Positions 8,907 through 37,705 of a stretch of DNA of 64,000 nucleotides are shown piece after piece; position 1 is the first letter of the stretch; every line of letters begins with the position of its first letter. The stretch lies in NCBI RefSeq assembly GCF_000622145.1, contig NZ_KK211404.1, positions 114,529-178,528 on the forward strand, read 5' to 3'. The DNA is from Paracoccus yeei ATCC BAA-599. GTDB taxonomy: Bacteria > Pseudomonadota > Alphaproteobacteria > Rhodobacterales > Rhodobacteraceae. Below the pieces are notes generated by a model. The model was not told the origin of the DNA, ran no database searches, and saw only the letters and a program-made list of their open reading frames with translations. A program made the position numbers and the translations under genes.

Positions 8907-9862
8907 GCCATCATCTCCGAGGCCTTGGCGCCGCGTTCCGCGCGCAGGTTCCGCGCCAGCAGGTCCATCGCGGCCATGCGCACGGCGACGCCCATCTCGA
9001 CCTGGTCCTGGATCACGGAACGGTTGATGTCGTCGGCGATGGTGCCGTCGATCTCGACGCCCCGGTTCATCGGGCCCGGGTGCATGACGATGGCGTCGGG
9101 CGCGGCCAGCGCCAGCTTCTCGGCATCCAGCCCCCAGCGGTGGTAATATTCCCGCTCGGACGGGATGAAGCCGCCGTCCATCCGTTCCTTTTGCAGCCGC
9201 AGCATCATCACCACATCGGCGCCCTTCAGCCCCTCGCGCATGTCCTCATAGACCTCGCAGCCCCAGTCGGCCGCGCCCGCGGGCATCAGCGTCGCGGGAC
9301 CGACCAGGCGCAGCCGGTTCTCCATCTTGCCCAGCAGGAACAGGTTCGAGCGCGCGACCCGGCTATGCGCGATGTCGCCGCAGATGGCGATGGTCAGGCG
9401 GTGCAGCCGGCCCTTGGCCCGGCGGATGGTCAGCCCGTCCAGCAGCGCCTGGGTCGGATGTTCATGCCGCCCGTCGCCCGCGTTCAGCACGGCGCAGTTC
9501 ACCTTTTGCGCCAGCAGGTCCACCGCGCCCGATTGCGGGTGGCGCACCACCAGCAGGTCGGGGTGCATCGCGTTCAGCGTCAGCGCGGTGTCGATCAGCG
9601 TCTCGCCCTTCTTCACGCTCGACTGGGCCACCGACATGTTCATCACATCCGCGCCCAGCCGCTTGCCGGCCAGCTCGAAACTGGCCTGGGTGCGGGTCGA
9701 GTTCTCGAAGAACATGTTGATCTGCGTCATGCCCTCCAGCGCATCGGAATGCTTCACCGTGCGGCGGTTCAGGTCGACATAGCTTTCGGCCAGGTCAAGA
9801 AGCGTTGTGATTTCAGCCGGGGCCAAAGGCTCGATCCCCAACAGATGGCGCGCTCGGAACAT
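8903..9862 (-). CDS. pyrB: Aspartate carbamoyltransferase catalytic subunit
   Basis: Condenses carbamoyl phosphate with aspartate in pyrimidine synthesis (319 aa). The carbamoyl-phosphate loop [15 protein letters not shown], the second site [15 protein letters not shown] and the C-terminal [12 protein letters not shown] are all intact. ATG at 9862 begins [13 protein letters not shown]; the much longer frame upstream is an artefact that runs through divergent cobA. It leads an overlapping operon pyrB - pyrC-like - plsY. No regulatory subunit (pyrI) is seen. Confidence 0.97.
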
Positions 9863-9961
9863 GGATACCCCCGGCTCTCGGTCGCGCCCTCTATCGCAAA
9901 TGGGGACGGACCCGGCAAGCAGCCCCTTGCCATGAAACCGATTTTGCCGCATCGCGGAAAG

Positions 9962-10693
9962 ATGACCGAACAAGGCCGCGTCAGCTTCGTCTCCTCCGGG
10001 CCGGGTGACCCCGAGCTTCTGACCCTGCGCGCATTGCGCCTGCTGCAGGGCTGCGACGTGGTGCTTTACGACGACCTCGCCTCGGGGCCGGTGCTGGACC
10101 AGGCGGGACCGCAGGCGGAACGCATCCCGGTGGGCAAGCGCGCCGGCCGTCCCTCGGCCAAGCAGGAGACGGTGAATGCCCTCCTGGTCGAGCACGCCAG
10201 CGCCGGCAAGCATGTGGTGCGGCTGAAATCGGGCGATTCCGGCGTCTTCGGCCGGCTCGAGGAGGAACTGGCCGCGCTGCGCGCCGCCGCCATTCCCTAT
10301 GAGATCGTGCCCGGCGTTCCTTCGGCCATGGCGGCGGCGGCGGTCGCGGGCCTGCCGCTGACCCGGCGCCTGACGGCGCGGCGGCTGCAATTCGTGACCG
10401 GCGCCGACGTGACCGGGGGCCTGCCGCAGGACCAGAACTGGGCGGCGCTCGCCGATCCGCGCGCCACCACGGTCGTCTTCATGGGCCAGCGCACATTTCC
10501 CGGCATGGCCCGGTCGCTGATCGAAAACGGCCTGCCCGCCGACACCCCGGCCCTGCTGGCCGAGGCCGTGGGCCACCCCCACCAGCGGCTGGTCCGCACC
10601 ACGGTATCGGGCCTTGCCGCGCTGCTCGCGGCCGAGGGGCCCAGCCCCCATCCCGCGCTGATCTTCTACGGACCTCTGGCCGACAGCCCCTGA
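9962..10693 (+). CDS. cobA: Uroporphyrinogen-III C-methyltransferase (SUMT)
   Basis: A stand-alone SAM-dependent methyltransferase (243 aa) making precorrin-2 for cobalamin, sirohaem or haem d1. It has the tetrapyrrole-methylase start [19 protein letters not shown], the Y-D-D-L substrate loop, [12 protein letters not shown], the [20 protein letters not shown] segment and [14 protein letters not shown] at 9962 is favoured because the family starts about 12 residues before GPGDPE; an in-frame ATG at 9932 is possible. Divergent from pyrB across 99 bp with no cobalamin riboswitch visible. A dispersed box lies five bases after its stop. Confidence 0.93.
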
Positions 10694-23400: not shown

Positions 23401-24096
23401 TCAACGGCGGGTTGCAGCCTCGGCGGCCTCGCGGATGGCGCGGATGTTCTCGCCGTAAGGGGCGCTGTTCGACACCGAGCCGCCCTTGAACACGGCCGAG
23501 CCCGCGACCAGGACGTCGGCGCCCGCCTCGGCCACCAGCGGCGCGGTGGTCGGGTCGACGCCGCCGTCGATCTCGATGTGCACGGGACGGTCGCCGATCA
23601 GGGCGCGCAGGGCACGGACCTTCTCGACCTGGCTGCGGATGAACTTCTGCCCGCCGAAGCCGGGGTTCACCGTCATCACGCAGATCAGGTCCAGGTCGTC
23701 GATCAGCCCGCTTGCGGCCTCGGCGGGCGTGCCCGGGTTCAGCGCCAGCCCCGCCTTGGCCCCGGCGCCCCGGATCGCCTGCAGGGTGCGGTGGATATGG
23801 GGCCCCGCCTCAAGATGGGCGGTGATGACATCCGCCCCCGATTCCGCGAAGGCGTCGATATAGCGGTCCACCGGCGCGATCATCAGGTGCACGTCCATCA
23901 CGCCGCGGATATGGGGCCGGATCGCCTTGCAGGTCTGTGGGCCGAAGGTGATGTTCGGCACGAAATGCCCGTCCATCACATCGACATGGACCCAGTCGGC
24001 GCCCTGATCCTCGACCGCCCGGATTTCCTGCCCGAAATTCGCGAAATCGGCGGACAGGATCGAGGGCGCGATCTTGATCTTGCGGTCGAACGTCAT
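23401..24096 (-). CDS. cbbE: Ribulose-phosphate 3-epimerase
   Basis: Interconverts ribulose-5-phosphate and xylulose-5-phosphate (231 aa). TIM-barrel motifs: KIAPSILSADFANFG, VHVDVMDGHFVPNITFG, DVHLMI, VMTVNPGFGGQKFI and EIDGGVDPTTAPLV with AGSAVFKG. Last gene of the Calvin-cycle operon, overlapping the cbbX frame by ATGA. If cbbX translation ends early at its internal TAA, coupled translation of this gene could also fall. Confidence 0.96.
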   Translation of the reverse strand: MTFDRKIKIAPSILSADFANFGQEIRAVEDQGADWVHVDVMDGHFVPNITFGPQTCKAIRPHIRGVMDVHLMIAPVDRYIDAFAESGADVITAHLEAGPHIHRTLQAIRGAGAKAGLALNPGTPAEAASGLIDDLDLICVMTVNPGFGGQKFIRSQVEKVRALRALIGDRPVHIEIDGGVDPTTAPLVAEAGADVLVAGSAVFKGGSVSNSAPYGENIRAIREAAEAATRR

Positions 24097-25019
24097 GGCT
24101 GATCCTTCCTGCGGCTGCCGTCGATGTCCAAGCCCCCCTGAAAGACGCGGCTGGCCCGGATGTCGGCCCCGGTTATCGTGGAAAGCGTTTTGGCGTCAAC
24201 GGGGCCGTCGCCGGAAAACAGCCGGTTCGCCTGGCGCAGCCGCGCCCGGTCCAGCGCATTGCGGATGGACCGCGCATTGGCGAAATGCGGCTGCTCGCGG
24301 CGCAGGCGGATATACTCCTCCATCGCCACGCGTCCCTCGGCGTCGAAGGCGTAACCCTGCCCCTCCAGCATCGCGCCGGAAATCCGGCCCAGTTCGTCGT
24401 CGGAATAATCGGGAAACTCGATGTGATGGGCGATGCGCGACCGAAACCCCGGATTGGCCGAAAAGAACCGGTCCATGCGGTCGGCATAGCCCGCCATGAT
24501 GACCACCAGGTCGTCGCGGTTGTTCTCCATCACCTGCAACAGGATCTCGATGGCCTCCTGGCCGTAGTCGCGCTCGTTGTCGGGCTTGTAAAGTTAATAG
24601 GCCTCGTCGATGAACAGGACGCCCCCCATCGCCTTCTTCAGCACCTCCTTGGTCTTGGGGGCGGTGTGGCCAATGTATTGCCCGACCAGATCGTCGCGCG
24701 TCACGCTGACCAGATGCCCCTTGCGCACATAGCCAAGGCGATGCAGCAGCCCCGCCATCTTCAGCGCCACGGTGGTCTTGCCGGTGCCGGGATTGCCGGT
24801 GAAGCTCATGTGCAGCGTCGGCACCTCATGGGCCAGCCCCAGTTGACGCCGCGCCCGGTCCACCAGCAGCAGCGCGGCGGTCTCGCGGATGCGCTCCTTG
24901 ACCGGAGCCAGGCCGATCAGTTCGCGATCCAGCTCGTCCAGGATCTCGCGCACGCCCGAGGTCTCGTATTCGGCCTTCAGATCGACCGTCGCCAGCGTCT
25001 CACCAACATCGCCATCCAT
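24093..25019 (-). pseudogene. cbbX: Red-type RuBisCO activase CbbX, interrupted by an in-frame TAA
   Basis: An AAA+ activase that uses ATP to release inhibitory sugar phosphates from red-type RuBisCO. The reading frame from ATG 25019 to the stop at 24093 is full length (about 308 codons) and alignable throughout, but codon 142 is TAA (bases 24594-24596, minus strand) where the family has Tyr (DEAYY). It comes straight after Walker B ([10 protein letters not shown]); Walker A (GNPGTGKTT) lies before it. After the stop the frame continues LYKPDNERDYGQ and MENNRDDLVVIMAGYADRM to a normal end. One base change (TAC/TAT to TAA) explains it. A truncated product would lack sensor and C-terminal domains and should be inactive. 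Sequencing error is the main alternative. Confidence 0.85.
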
Positions 25020-25111: not shown

Positions 25112-25501
25112 TCAGCCGACCATCTCGTGCGTATAGCGGATATGCCGGCCATCGGCCTCCATCCGCCAGGTCCTGAAGGACGGCTCGGACTTCGGACGGT
25201 TGACGATGAAGGACATCATCACCGTCTCCCATCCCCGTGTGCTGTCGAAGGCGTTGATGCGGATATAGGCGTCGCCATGCGCCTTGCGGCACTCGTCCAG
25301 CTCCATCATCACGCCCTTGGCGTCCTTCAGGTCGAACATCGGATTGCCCCACATCTCCCAATAGGTGTTGCGGGGGTGGGGCTCGTCGGTGAACTCGATG
25401 CCGACGGCCCAGTCCTTCGACAGGATGTATTCCACCTGGTCGCGGATCTGGTTGTCGTCCAGATCGGGCAGAAAGGAAAAGCAGCCCTGGGTGATACGCA
25501 T
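25112..25501 (-). CDS. cbbS: RuBisCO small subunit, red-type (form IC)
   Basis: Small subunit of ribulose-bisphosphate carboxylase (129 aa), capping the L8 core. It begins [16 protein letters not shown] and has [20 protein letters not shown] and [15 protein letters not shown]. The long C-terminal extension past [16 protein letters not shown] is the beta-hairpin extension of red-type enzymes. It follows cbbL by 12 bases and precedes the cbbX frame. Confidence 0.97.
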
Positions 25502-25513
25502 GTTCTCTCTCCC

Positions 25514-28072
<2,559 letters not shown>

Positions 28073-28073
<1 letters not shown>

Positions 28074-30073
28074 CATTTCCCTCCCTGGATAAGCTGGCCG
28101 GCCAGTTCGGCGGCGCGTTCCGCCGTGATGCCGAAATGGCGGTAAAGCGCGGGGGCCGGGGCGGATGCGCCGAACCCCGCCATGCCGACGAAACCGTCGC
28201 CGGGACGCAGCATCAGCCCGTCCCAGCCCTGCCGGATCAGCGCCTCGATGCCGATGCGGGGGGCGCGGCCCAGGACGCGCTCGCGCTCGGCCTCGGGCCT
28301 TGCGGCGAAAAGCTCGAAACAGGGGGCTGACACCACCGCCGCGCGCACCCCCTGGCCCGCCAGCAGGTCGGCGGCGGCCAGCGCGATCTCGACCTCGGAC
28401 CCGGTGGCGATCAGCGTCACGTCGCGCGCGCCTTGCGGCTCGCGCAGCACATAGGCGCCCTGCCGGGTCAGGTTCGCGGCCACATCGTCCCTGACGGTCG
28501 GCAGGTTCTGCCGCGACAGGCATAGGACCGAGGGCGTGGCGCGTTCCGTCAGCGCGATTTCCCAGGCCTCGGCGGTTTCCACCGCGTCGGCGGGGCGGAA
28601 CACCAGCAGGTTCGGGATCGCGCGCAGCGCCGCCACCTGCTCGACCGGCTGGTGGGTGGGGCCGTCCTCGCCCAGGCCGATGCTGTCATGGGTCATGACA
28701 TGGACGACCGGCACCCCCATCAGCGCGCCCAGCCGGATCGCCGGGCGGGAATAGTCGGAAAACGCCAGGAAAGTCCCGCCATAGGGGATCAGCCCGCCAT
28801 GCAGCGCGATGCCGTTCATGATCGCGGCCATGCCATGTTCGCGGATGCCGTAATGGACATAGCGCCCGCTGCGGTCGTCGGGCGTGACCGAGACCATGCC
28901 TTTTGTCCGCGTCAGGTTCGACCCGGTCAGGTCGGCGCTGCCGCCCACGGTGTTGGGCAGCACGTCGTTGACCACCTCCAGCGCCATTTCCGACGCCTTG
29001 CGGGTCGCGACCTTGGGGCGGGTTTCGGTAAGGCCCCGGCAATAGTCGCCGATCCTGGCGCGCAGCCGGGCTGCGTCGGGCGCGGCCAGCGTGGCGGCGA
29101 ACCCGGCTTCGTGAGGGGAAGCGGCCAGCCGGTCCAGCCATGCCGACCGCGCCTTCGCTCCGCGCGCGGCCACCGCGCGCCAGGAGTCGATGATCTGCGG
29201 CGGAAGGACAAAGGGCTCATGCGCCCAGCCGAAACCCTTGCGGGCGGCGGCGATCTCGTCGGCGCCCAAGGGCGCGCCGTGGACATCGTGGCTGCCCTGC
29301 TTGCCGGGCGCGCCGAAACCGATCACGGTCTTGCAGGCGATCATCGACGGGCGGTCGTCGGCGCGCGCGGCCTCGATGGCCGTGGCGACGGCCTCGCGGT
29401 CGTGGCCGTCCACCGCCTGCACATGCCAGCCCGAGGCCGCGAACCGCGCCTTCTGGTCGGTGGCGGTCGCCAGGTCGGTGTGGCCGTCGATGGTGATGCC
29501 GTTGTCGTCCCACAGCACGATCAGCCGGCCCAGCCGCTGGTGGCCGGCAAAGTCGATGGCCTCGTGGCTGATGCCCTCCATCAGGCAGCCGTCGCCGCAG
29601 ATCACATAGGTCCAGTGATCGACCAGGGCGTCGCCGAAGCGGGCGTTCATCATCCGCTCGGCCAGGGCCATGCCGACGGCGGTGGTGATGCCCTGGCCCA
29701 GCGGGCCGGTGGTGACCTCGATGCCCTTGGCGTGGCCGTATTCGGGGTGGCCCGCGGTGCGGGCGCCCAGCTGGCGGAAACGCTTCAGCTGGTCCATGTC
29801 CATGTCGTCGTAACCCAGCATGTGGTGGATGGCATAGACCAGCATCGAGCCATGCCCCGCCGACATCACGAAGCGGTCGCGGTCGGGCCATGCGGCATCG
29901 GCCGGGTCGATGGTCATGAAGCGGTTGAACAGCACCGCCGCCACATCGGCCATGCCCATCGGCGCGCCGGGATGGCCGGATTTCGCGGCTTCGACCGCGT
30001 CCATCGCCAGCACCCGGATGGCGGTGGCCATCGCGGCCTCGGCGTCGGTGTCGATACGCAGCATCTGGTTCAT
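28073..30073 (-). CDS. cbbT: Transketolase
   Basis: Thiamine-diphosphate enzyme (666 aa) moving two-carbon units in the regenerative half of the Calvin cycle. N-terminal: [32 protein letters not shown], the ThDP motif [16 protein letters not shown] with [14 protein letters not shown]. Pyrimidine-binding domain: [33 protein letters not shown] and LCLSRQNLP. Length is normal. It lies between prk and cbbA in one leftward operon. Confidence 0.97.
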
Positions 30074-30085
30074 GGCGTCTCCTCC

Positions 30086-30958
30086 TCAGGCGCGCTTCGA
30101 TTCGCTGACCAGACGCAGGATCATCGGCGTCAGGATCAGCTGCATGGCCAGGTCCATCCTGGGCCCCGGGATGACGATCGAGTTCGGCCGGCTCATCCAC
30201 GAGCCCTGGATCATCGTGGTCAGATAGGGAAAATCGATGCCGCGCGGGTTCCTGAACCGGATCACCACCAGGCTTTCGTCCGGCGTCGGGATCCAGCGGG
30301 CGATGAACGGGTTCGAGGTGTCCACCACCGGCACGCGCTGAAAGTTGATGTCGGTCTGGGTGAACTGCGGGCAGATCACATGCACATAGGCGTGCATCCG
30401 GCGCAGGATCACGTCCGTCACCGCCTCGGTCGAATAGCCCCGGCTGGCCTTGTCGCGGTGGATCTTCTGGATCCATTCCAGGTTGATGACCGGCACGACG
30501 CCGATCTTCAGGTCGGCCTGGCCCGCGATGTCGATGCCCTCGGCCTTCACCGCGCCGTGCAGCCCCTCATAGAACAGCAGGTCCGAGCCGTCCTCGAACG
30601 GCGCCCAATCGGTGAAGGTGCCGGGGGCCGTGCCGTATTTCTCGGCCTCGCGCTCGTCGTGGACGTAATGGCGCGTCTCGCCCCGGCCGGTCTCGCCATA
30701 GGTGCGGAACACGGCTTCCAGCTTTTCCAGTTCATTCGCCTCGATGCTGAAATGGCTGAAGGTGTTGTCGCCGGCCTCGCCCCGGCGGGCCAGTTCCTGC
30801 TTCATCGCGGCACGGTCGTAACGGTGGAAGGCATCGCCCTCGATGCTGACGGACCGGATGCCCTCGCGGCGAAAGATCTGGTCGAAGGTGTTCTTGATCG
30901 TCGTGGTGCCCGCGCCCGACGAGCCGGTGACAGAGATGATGGGGTGCTTCTTGCTCAT
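30086..30958 (-). CDS. cbbP: Phosphoribulokinase
   Basis: Makes ribulose-1,5-bisphosphate from ribulose-5-phosphate and ATP (290 aa, bacterial octameric type). P-loop variant SVTGSSGAGTTTIKNTF; substrate loops EGDAFHRYDR and HYVHDE; Walker B-like DLLFYEGLHGA; and KIGVVPVINLEWIQKIHRDK. This length and the lack of regulatory cysteines fit the proteobacterial form. It is 12 bases upstream of tkt. Confidence 0.97.
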   Translation of the reverse strand: MSKKHPIISVTGSSGAGTTTIKNTFDQIFRREGIRSVSIEGDAFHRYDRAAMKQELARRGEAGDNTFSHFSIEANELEKLEAVFRTYGETGRGETRHYVHDEREAEKYGTAPGTFTDWAPFEDGSDLLFYEGLHGAVKAEGIDIAGQADLKIGVVPVINLEWIQKIHRDKASRGYSTEAVTDVILRRMHAYVHVICPQFTQTDINFQRVPVVDTSNPFIARWIPTPDESLVVIRFRNPRGIDFPYLTTMIQGSWMSRPNSIVIPGPRMDLAMQLILTPMILRLVSESKRA

Positions 30959-30967
30959 GGTCTTTCC

Positions 30968-31951
30968 TCAGGCGCGGAACAGGCCGCGATGGCCGAACAG
31001 GGCGGAAACCTCGGTTTCGGGCAGGTCGTGATAGGCGGCGACGCGGGCGACCTTCTCGGCCGAGCCGAAGACCAGCGGCGTGCGCTGGTGCAGCGCGGTC
31101 GCGGCCTGGTCCAGGATCGGCTCGCAGGCGTCGGTGGCGCGCCCGCCCGCCTGCTCGATCAGGAAGGCGATGGGGGCGCATTCGTAAAGCATCCGCAACC
31201 GGCCGCGCTCATAGCCCTTGCGGGCGTCCGACGGGTACAGGAAGATGCCGCCGCGCGTCAGGATGCGATGCGTCTCGGCCACCAGGCTGGCGATCCAGCG
31301 CATGTTGAAATTCGTCTCGCGCGGGCCCTCGATGCCGGCGACGCAATCGTCGATGTAGGCCCGGATCGGGCGCGACCAGTGCCGGTAGTTCGAGGCGTTG
31401 ATCGCGAATTCGAACGAACAGTCGGGCATCGTCAGCCGCCCGTCGACCAGCCGGAAGGCGCCCGTGCCGGGGTCCAGCAGGTACTGCTGCACGCCGTCGC
31501 CGAAGCTGACCATCATCGCGCAGCGCGGGCCATAGATGACATAGCCCGCGCCGATCTGCTGGCGGGTCGGGCGCAGGAAGCTGGCCTCGGCCGTGTCCTC
31601 GGCCGGATAGATCGAAAAGATCGTCCCGATCGAGACATTGGTGTCGATGTTCGAGGACCCGTCCAGCGGGTCGATCGCCACGGCCAGGCTGCCCTGCGGG
31701 TCCAGCGCCAGCGCCTGCTCCTGCTCCTCGGACGCCAGCCAGCGCACGCCGGCGCCGCGCAGCGCGGTGCGAAACATCCCGTCCGCGATCACGTCCAGCG
31801 CCTTCTGCCCGTCGCCGTCCGCGTTGGTGCCGACCGCCGCGCCCAGATCGCCGCCGCGCCGGATCAGCACCGCCAGTTCCGCCGCGGCCCCGGCCAAGGC
31901 CGTCATCGCGGGCCGCAGCCCGGCGGGGATCCGTCCCGTCTCGATGGCCAT
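30968..31951 (-). CDS. cbbF: Fructose-1,6-bisphosphatase class I
   Basis: Hydrolyses fructose-1,6- (and often sedoheptulose-1,7-) bisphosphate (327 aa). The metal site is [20 protein letters not shown]; other motifs are [31 protein letters not shown] and [20 protein letters not shown], with the [10 protein letters not shown] end. First gene of the cbb operon; the CbbR-type site lies in the 95-bp region before it. Confidence 0.97.
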
Positions 31952-32046: not shown

Positions 32047-32970
32047 ATGACGCGCATCGACGCCGTGACGCTTCGCCAACTCCGCACGCTGCGCGCGGTG
32101 GTCGAGACGGGCTCGCTGACCGCCGCGGCGGGCGACCTTGGTCTGAGCCCGCCGGCCGTTCACGGCCAGCTTCGCGCGCTGGAAGACATGATGGCGGCGC
32201 CCCTGGTGATCCGGGGCGAACACGGCGCCTTCCTGCCCACCGACGAAGGCCGCGCCGTGCTGGAGGCCGAGGCCCAGATCGCCGTCGCGCTGGACGCCTG
32301 CGCCCGCCGCGTCGCCGCGCTGCAAAGCGGGCATGTCGGCGCGGTCTCGCTGGGGGTGGTCTCGACGGGCAAGTATTTCGCCCCGCGCCTGGTCGCCGAA
32401 GTGCGCCGCGCCCTGCCCGAGGTCGAGGTGACGCTGAGGATCGGCAACCGCGACGCGGTGATCGCCTGGCTGACCTCGCGCGCGCTGGACCTGGCCATCA
32501 TGGGCCGCCCGCCGCGCGCCCCCGCCGTCACCGCCGAACCCATCGGCCCCCATCCCCATGTCGTGATCGCGCCCCCCGACCACCCGCTGGCCAGGGCCGA
32601 CCCCGCCCTGCCCCAGGACCTGCTGGCCGAAACCTTCCTGGCGCGCGAACCCGGCTCGGGGACGCGCATCCTGATGACGCGCTTTCTGGACCGCATCGGC
32701 GACGGCACCCCCTGGCGCATGGTCGAGATGGGCACGAACGAAACCATCAAGCAGGCGGTGATCGCGGGCCTCGGGGTGGCGCTGATCTCGCAGCATACGG
32801 TGACCGAGGAATTGCGCTCGGGGCGGCTGGTCGCGCTGCGGGCGAACGGGCTGCCGATCCAGCGCAACTGGTTCCTGATCCGGCGCGAGGACATGGCGCT
32901 GTCGCCGGCGGGCCAGCGCGTGCACGACCATGTGCTGGCGCTGGGCGGCTCGTTCCTGCCCCGGCTTTAG
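32047..32970 (+). CDS. cbbR: LysR-type regulator of the Calvin-cycle operon
   Basis: Transcription activator (307 aa) with an N-terminal winged helix (LRQLRTLRAVVETGSLTAAA, then LGLSPPAVHGQLRALED) and a C-terminal effector domain (VGAVSLGVVSTGKYFAPRLV, MGRPPRAPAV, REPGSGTR, GLGVALISQHTV). It is divergent from cbbF, the classic position of CbbR, which responds to ribulose bisphosphate or related metabolites. The assignment rests on family and position. Confidence 0.94.
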   Translation: MTRIDAVTLRQLRTLRAVVETGSLTAAAGDLGLSPPAVHGQLRALEDMMAAPLVIRGEHGAFLPTDEGRAVLEAEAQIAVALDACARRVAALQSGHVGAVSLGVVSTGKYFAPRLVAEVRRALPEVEVTLRIGNRDAVIAWLTSRALDLAIMGRPPRAPAVTAEPIGPHPHVVIAPPDHPLARADPALPQDLLAETFLAREPGSGTRILMTRFLDRIGDGTPWRMVEMGTNETIKQAVIAGLGVALISQHTVTEELRSGRLVALRANGLPIQRNWFLIRREDMALSPAGQRVHDHVLALGGSFLPRL

Positions 32971-35859: not shown

Positions 35860-37705
35860 CCGTTTCGCCCGCATGATCGACGCCTTCCGCCCCGCCGAAG
35901 GCCCGCCGCCGCGCAGCCTGCTGGCCTTTTTCCGCTGGTGCCTCTCGGGGGCTTGGGGCGGGCTGACCATCGCGGCCATCGCCTCGGCGCTCAGCGGGAT
36001 CGCGGACATCGTCTCGGCGGTGATGCTGGGCTGGGTGATCGACGCCGTGGTGACGACCACGCCCGACCGGCTGCTGGCCGACAAGGGCGCGCTGATCGCG
36101 GGCTTCGTGCTGTTCTTCCTGGTGATCCGGCCGGCGATCTTCGGCTTTTCCACCGCCAGCTCCAGCGTCATCATCGGCCCGAACCTGTTCCCGCTGGTGC
36201 TGTCGCGGCTGCACCGCTGGACCATGGGCCATTCCGTCACCTTCTTCGACAACGACTTCGCCGGCCGCATCGCGCAGAAGCAGACCCAGACCGCCCGCGC
36301 CGTCACCGATGTCGCGACCGAGTTCGTGAACGTCGTGGCCTTCGCGCTGGCCTCGATCCTGGGCTCGGCGGCGTTCCTCGTGTCGGTGGACGGCTGGGGC
36401 GCGGTCGCGATGCTGGTCTGGCTGGCGGCCTACGCCGGGCTGATCCGCTTCTTCCTGCCGCGCATCCGCACCCGCTCGGCCAGCCGCGCCTCGGCCCGCG
36501 CCATGGTCACGGGCCAGGTCGTCGACACCATCACCAACATCAAGACCGTCAAGCTCTTCGCCCATGCCGAGCACGAGGACCGCGCCGCCCTCGGCGCCAT
36601 GGCAGGTTTCCGCGAACGCGCGCTGGACTTCGGCCGCGTCTCGACCTGGTTCCGCTTTTCGCTGATGTTCGTCGCCGGCGCCCTGCCGGTGGTGCTGATC
36701 GGCGGCACGCTCCTTTTGTGGCGCGAGGGCGCGGCCACGGCCGGCGACATCGCGGCGGCCGGGGCGATCTCGATGCGGCTCGCGCAGATGACCGGCTGGG
36801 TCAGCATGGCGCTGATGGGCGTCTGGGGCTCCATCGGCGAGGTCGAGGACGGGATGCAGACCCTGTCCCCGCCCCACGCCCTGACCGACGCGCCCGACGC
36901 CCTGGCCCTGGGCCGGGTCCAGGGCCGGATCGACTTCGACCACGTCGATTTCGCCTATGGCCGGGACGACGGCGCGGGCATCCGCGACCTCGACCTGCAC
37001 ATCGCGGCGGGCGAAAAGCTGGGCATCGTCGGCGCCTCGGGCGCGGGCAAGTCCACCATGGTCGCCCTGCTGCTCAGGCTTTACGACGTCGAACGCGGCG
37101 CGGTCCGCATCGACGGCCACGACCTGCGCACGGTGACCCAGGAAAGCCTGCGCCGCAACATCGCCATGGTCACGCAGGAAACCGCGATGTTCAACCGCTC
37201 GGCCCGCGACAACATCCTTTATGGCCGCCCCGACGCGACCGAGGAGGACATCATCGCCGCCGCCCGCGCGGCCGAGGCGCATGACTTTATCCTGACCCTG
37301 CGCGACCACCAGGGCCGCAGCGGCTATGACGCGCACCTGGGCGAACGCGGGGTCAAGCTCTCGGGCGGGCAGCGCCAGCGCATCGCGCTGGCCCGCGCCC
37401 TGCTCAAGGACGCCCCGATCCTGGTCCTGGACGAGGCCACCAGCGCGCTCGACAGCGAGGTCGAGGCCCAGGTCCAGGACGCCCTGACCCGCGCCATGCA
37501 GGGCAAGACGGTGCTGGCCATCGCGCATCGGCTGTCCACCATCGCCCAGCTTGACCGCATCGTCGTCATGGAACAGGGCCGCATCGTCGAACAGGGCAGC
37601 CACGCCGACCTGCTGGCGCAGGGCGGCACCTATGCCCGCTACTGGAGCCGGCAGTCCGGCGGCTTCCTCGGCACCGACGACGACCCGGCGGAGGCCGCCG
37701 AGTGA
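35852..37705 (+). CDS. ABC exporter, fused membrane and ATPase domains
   Basis: A 617-aa half-transporter: six-helix membrane domain (residues about 30-320, with [21 protein letters not shown] typical of type IV exporters) and an ATPase domain with Walker [10 protein letters not shown], signature [16 protein letters not shown], Walker [13 protein letters not shown] and H-loop AHRLST. Lipid A/drug exporter-like; the substrate is unknown. It overlaps cca by eight bases. Its stop lies within the tandem repeat before the next gene. Confidence 0.92.

Follow-up and report, generated by a model that had tools for sequence, protein, structure and literature searches.

Organization of the Calvin operon

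The window (the whole stretch of 64,000 nucleotides that was analysed) carries a Calvin operon on the minus strand with the gene order cbbF, cbbP, cbbT, cbbA, cbbL, cbbS, cbbX and cbbE, and with cbbR in divergent orientation (Table 1). The genes for both subunits of a form I RuBisCO are present and cbbX is the next gene after cbbS. We take the large subunit to be of the red type, based on its cbbX partner and on its tail sequence. As proposed in the earlier note on this DNA, the remaining cbb genes (cbbR, F, P, T, A, L, S and E) all have open frames, and only cbbX is interrupted.

Table 1. Positions of the cbb genes and of the nonsense codon in the window.
Feature	Position	Strand	Basis
cbbE, ribulose-phosphate 3-epimerase, open; ATG overlaps cbbX TGA	23401..24096	-	
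cbbX, red-type RuBisCO activase, interrupted	24093..25019	-	TIGR02880 and translation
TAA, cbbX codon 142 (Tyr in relatives)	24594..24596	-	translation and alignment
cbbS, RuBisCO small subunit, open	25112..25501	-	
cbbL, form I (red-type) RuBisCO large subunit, open, C-terminal tail present	25514..26980	-	
cbbA, fructose-bisphosphate aldolase, open	26994..28073	-	
cbbT, transketolase, open	28073..30073	-	
cbbP, phosphoribulokinase, open	30086..30958	-	
cbbF, fructose-bisphosphatase, open	30968..31951	-	
cbbR, LysR-type regulator, 307 aa, divergent from operon, open	32047..32970	+	

A nonsense codon interrupts cbbX

The triplet TTA on the plus strand is an in-frame TAA on the minus strand and corresponds to codon 142 of 308 in the window translation of cbbX, numbered from the ATG at 25017-25019. 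It is preceded by the residues FIDEAY and followed by LYKPDNERDYGQEAIEILLQ. Beyond it the frame stays open until the TGA at 24093-24095, leaving the TAA as the sole interruption. Upstream of the stop, counted on the translation, lie the residues that we take to be Walker A (75-82), the pore-loop tyrosine (Tyr115) and Walker B (D138-E139, within FIDEAY). The TIGR02880 profile gave a single full-length match (positions 1-284, 524.4 bits, with "1 TAA" inside), which places the gene above the curated cut-off of 459 bits when the stop is read through, while each half scored alone reaches 250-253 bits. The gene thus resembles known CbbX proteins of this family, such as that of R. sphaeroides, in its full-length homology before and after the stop, in its conserved motifs and in its place after cbbLS, but they are whole proteins whereas the window cbbX, unless the base call is wrong, has no uninterrupted frame for a whole AAA+ module. 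The description in the earlier note, a full-length gene conserved on both sides of the TAA with intact length, frame and cbbE start, therefore holds.

The ATG of cbbE (24094-24096) overlaps the TGA of cbbX as ATGA. From the nonsense codon to this start 497 bases would go untranslated, and because of this arrangement the translation of cbbE may be lowered, so that its sequence is intact and its expression perhaps not.

A codon-usage scan of the window revealed ten in-frame stops that are flanked on both sides by coding signal. The stop at 24594 has the highest summed coding signal among them and the following start codon is 19 codons away; for eight of the other nine a start codon lies within 11 codons. 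Three of these stops (25514, 30086 and 30968) are known gene ends, 30225 (plus strand) is antisense within cbbP, 36430 (minus strand) is antisense to an ABC-transporter ORF whose end is the stop at 37703; 49327, 50947 and 56395 were judged from the 21 residues of printed context. The stop at 24594 is the only one of those scanned that we judged to split a gene.

Codon 142 of cbbX in a same-species genome and in other relatives

Paracoccus mutanolyticus RSP-02 (G121) belongs to the same species, and about 19.8 kb of it align with the window at 97.6-98.9%; the same-species comparison consists of this one genome. Its cbbX has a Tyr codon at position 142 and an open frame, and is thus an intact allele. 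The two cbbX genes differ at 16 of 927 bases without any gap, and apart from the stop and V231A all changes are synonymous (13 codons). Given these few differences, the loss is young; relaxed selection downstream of the stop was not seen in this comparison. The view of the earlier note that a single substitution occurred, and not general decay, is supported by these data.

The single-contig assembly of G121 (locus L046) has gaps in cbbF, cbbA and waaA, and its cbbR is only 91% identical to that of the window with a dN/dS of 0.77, which suggests sequence errors in that assembly; amino-acid changes counted against it are therefore upper bounds. With this reservation, the synonymous and amino-acid changes number 7 and 0 in cbbE, 3 and 0 in cbbS, 19 and 2 in cbbT and 6 and 1 in cbbP, and in cbbL we counted 42 synonymous and 6 amino-acid changes, several of them multi-base codon changes.

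Codon 142 was compared across 55 locus rows, which include some genomes fetched twice. TAC was found in 42 rows, TAT in nine, TAA in two, GAC in one and a gap in one, confirming that Tyr is the family residue at this position (51 of 55). Both TAA rows are the window's own, and the GAC row and the gap row are decayed copies. We also considered that the same stop might be common to relatives and rejected this; the TAA of P. sphaerophysae is a different one, located ten codons on.

Interrupted cbbX genes in Paracoccus and in the family

Among 125 Paracoccus genomes, 63 have a TIGR02880 match, 55 of them above the cut-off, and two of these 55 contain a stop, the strain studied here and P. sphaerophysae (G110). 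A full-length form I match to PF00016 was present in 54 of the 125 genomes: 52 have an uninterrupted cbbX, one is the present strain and one (G113) has no cbbX. An interrupted cbbX together with a whole cbbL therefore occurs in one of the 53 genomes that have both genes, where the red type was assigned to cbbL collectively from the presence of cbbX. In G082 the combination is the opposite one: cbbX is uninterrupted and the cbbL match is split into two pieces. In G113 (L095), cbbL and cbbS are 57% and 31% identical to those of the window and two cbbR-like matches are present; its form I RuBisCO is likely of a different type with another activase. In a draw of 394 genomes from the family, 35 scored above the TIGR02880 cut-off and the present strain is the sole one of them with a stop; seven further genomes gave partial or weak matches, one of which (G231) is in pieces with a TGA.

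Decayed cbbX copies were found in five other Paracoccus genomes, and cbbL is broken in every one of them, with 11% of its length covered in P. sphaerophysae, 85% in G014, 26% in G028, 22% in G122 and 87% in G064, and with stops within the matched cbbL pieces in three of the five. In P. sphaerophysae (L047, about 9135-10034) cbbX was hit by a single change from Tyr to TAA, at the codon equivalent to 152 of the window gene, and most of cbbL is gone. These operons thus share a broken cbbX with the window, in one case through the same kind of change, but in them cbbL has been deleted or broken as well, whereas in the window only cbbX is hit.

Substitutes for CbbX and energy genes in the rest of the genome

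The draft genome comprises 4,428,895 bases in 70 contigs and is 99.99% complete with 1% contamination. The earlier note had proposed to look for a second cbbX; a TIGR02880 profile search of the whole assembly found only the interrupted one. For RuBisCO, the only PF00016 match in the assembly is that of the form I cbbL. A CbbQ-type activase as a substitute was considered and rejected, as the sole CbbQ_C match was identified as NorQ, with 476 bits to the solved NorQ versus 306 to CbbQ, and is encoded directly downstream of NorB (585 bits); NCBIfam names neither protein above a cut-off.

A search with RF00005 yielded 42 tRNAs, whose anticodons were read by ARAGORN. No TTA anticodon of an ochre suppressor was among those read, in a list that is incomplete since tRNA-Ile is not listed and tRNA-Tyr was missed at first pass; the latter was found by pattern and has the anticodon GTA. 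ARAGORN also reported a selenocysteine tRNA with the anticodon TCA (L104, C15).

A [NiFe]-hydrogenase large subunit and a PQQ alcohol dehydrogenase are encoded at full length and contain no stops, thus the loss of cbbX is not part of a general decay of such energy genes. SoxB was not found above its cut-off in the genome, so that lithotrophy on thiosulfate is unsupported.

Phosphoribulokinase is retained without form I RuBisCO

With the phosphoribulokinase (PRK) of the window as query, 70 of the 125 Paracoccus genomes gave a match, 67 of them over at least 287 of 289 positions and without a stop; no PRK match was obtained in the other 55. Fourteen of the 67 have no intact form I RuBisCO (G010, G012, G013, G014, G018, G028, G040, G052, G063, G064, G092, G108, G114 and G124; loci L048, L049, L051, L096-L103 and L107-L109), and G082 with its split cbbL was counted apart from them. 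Completeness is 84% for G092, 94% for G052 and at least 99% for the others. Two of the 14 PRKs scored 492 and 465 bits against NF011997 (cut-off 362), and ten positions that we take to belong to the active site are kept in 13 of the 14, G028 having H45Q. Retention is not universal, since all that is left of PRK in G061 is a remnant containing stops.

For PRK, dN/dS is 0.01-0.22 when each gene is paired with that of its nearest RuBisCO-less relative (14 rows), compared to 0.09-0.17 (10 rows) among RuBisCO-bearing genomes and their nearest RuBisCO-bearing relatives. The RuBisCO-less pairs include time before the loss, and the clearest ones are G108/G124 (0.013) and G010/G052 (0.083). For cbbF, with copies under 80% length left out, the values are 0.13-0.48 in RuBisCO-less genomes (11 rows) versus 0.20-0.29 in RuBisCO-bearing ones (5 rows). 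By these ranges, selection is often relaxed on cbbF and not on PRK, which is under purifying selection. In a PRK tree of 25 rows, 11 of which are RuBisCO-bearing, the RuBisCO state changes five times, and at least two of these changes are forced by well-supported branches.

A cbbR of at least 99% length without a stop lies beside PRK in ten of the 14 genomes; it is broken in G010 and G018 and was not found in the stretch read at the PRK locus of G052 and G063. The neighbouring CbbR can therefore not be the partner of PRK in all 14. Of the operon, G040 retains cbbR, PRK and cbbE. In G063 (L108, 9482-10690) the intact PRK adjoins an ORF of 106 amino acids whose beginning resembles that of the G010 cbbF, and no cbbR match was present in the 20 kb read.

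Six of the 14 genomes have other PF00016 matches, seven proteins in total. A hidden RuBisCO was rejected for these, since OiaX, an enzyme of the apionate pathway, is the best model for all seven. The OiaX scores are 275-567 bits, all below the cut-off of 700, with the roughly 280 residues of the PF00016 stretch as query, compared to 125-169 bits for the general RuBisCO large-subunit model and 145-184 bits for the type III model. The seven are thus RuBisCO-like proteins and not form I enzymes; three of them, with 275-324 bits to OiaX, may represent another subgroup.

Discussion

The change of Tyr142 to a stop very probably is a real, recent, strain-level null mutation of the only cbbX. In the encoded peptide only two residues follow the Walker B glutamate, and Walker A and the pore-loop tyrosine are kept. 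According to PMC5437159, CbbX is proposed to act by threading the C-terminal tail of red-type RbcL through its pore, and the pore-loop residue Tyr114 is required. Judged from the family, the truncated peptide would lack all that follows in the AAA+ module, among it the C-terminal helical portion needed for hexamers. Since the red-type RuBisCO with its tail and the rest of the operon are intact and CbbX is lost, we expect that RuBisCO would still be made, yet would be trapped by its substrate RuBP and by other sugar phosphates, leading to poor autotrophic growth. Disruption of cbbX in R. sphaeroides is reported to impair autotrophic growth. Provided that the base call is correct, CO2 fixation by the present strain is probably poor. 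The loss would likely be tolerated through heterotrophic growth, in nature or in culture, and other Paracoccus lineages have gone further and lost the RuBisCO genes altogether.

It is unlikely that the TAA is a base-call or assembly error and that the cbbX of the strain is intact. Such an error would fit a single base in a draft assembly of 70 contigs in which all the other cbb genes are clean. Against it, completeness and contamination of the genome show no sign of general low quality, no further gene-splitting stop was judged to be present in the window, and genuine nonsense mutations are common in genes that can be dispensed with.

We also doubt that the loss is adaptive, in the sense that disarming RuBisCO while keeping PRK and CbbR is a repeated first step to a RuBisCO-free PRK-CbbR module. 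The PRK-only genomes, the uninterrupted cbbR adjoining PRK in most of them and the purifying selection on PRK would agree with such a scenario. However, there is one strain with one mutation, and the other 124 genomes contain no intermediate in which only cbbX is lost. The five other broken cbbX genes lie in operons with a broken cbbL, the split cbbL beside an uninterrupted cbbX in G082 argues against a fixed order of loss, and in G052 and G063, which keep PRK, the stretch read contains no cbbR.

That the TAA is read through, or that the C-terminal half restarts, to give a functional CbbX is highly improbable. The sequence beyond the stop is not decaying, which would agree with such a rescue but is explained by the recent loss. 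Against it, no ochre suppressor was among the tRNAs of the incomplete list and tRNA-Tyr reads with GTA, and one AAA+ module would hardly assemble from two pieces split just past Walker B.

The stop in cbbX, read as a real null mutation, is an ordinary gene loss (a nonsense pseudogene) in an unusual place, and the retained PRK is the better lead. The presence of PRK without RuBisCO points to a job that would be independent of RuBisCO. Methylorubrum likewise keeps PRK and has no RuBisCO. There, QscR regulates C1 assimilation and responds to RuBP (Ochsner 2017, as cited in PMC8388818 and PMC11252147), and RuBP build-up inhibits E. coli expressing PRK (Hudson 1992, as cited in PMC8388818). The 14 Paracoccus genomes resemble the PRK-RuBP-QscR system of Methylorubrum extorquens in having PRK without RuBisCO, in ten cases beside a CbbR-type regulator; however, in Methylorubrum QscR has a target pathway, and the likeness in Paracoccus is only an analogy. 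Our hypothesis is that RuBP might have a similar signalling role in Paracoccus. It is possible, if rather improbable, that the present strain is at the first step of a recurrent Paracoccus route, in which RuBisCO function is dropped and PRK, usually with CbbR, is selected for a RuBisCO-independent job, most likely with RuBP as an intracellular signal. A cbbX-null strain with intact cbbLS would be a natural intermediate on this route, in which RuBP would be made and hardly consumed while CbbR would still respond.

Among the titles and abstract openings of the literature matches listed, we found neither a natural cbbX null nor a PRK kept in a RuBisCO-less Paracoccus. If real, the mutation provides a natural activase-null strain with an otherwise complete red-type Calvin operon, in which the dependence of red-type RuBisCO on CbbX could be tested in vivo. 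An annotated "complete cbb operon" need not mean autotrophy, and with 14 of 125 genomes encoding PRK without form I RuBisCO, PRK is a poor stand-alone marker for CO2 fixation in Paracoccus. The retained PRK raises the testable question of which role RuBP has in RuBisCO-less Paracoccus.
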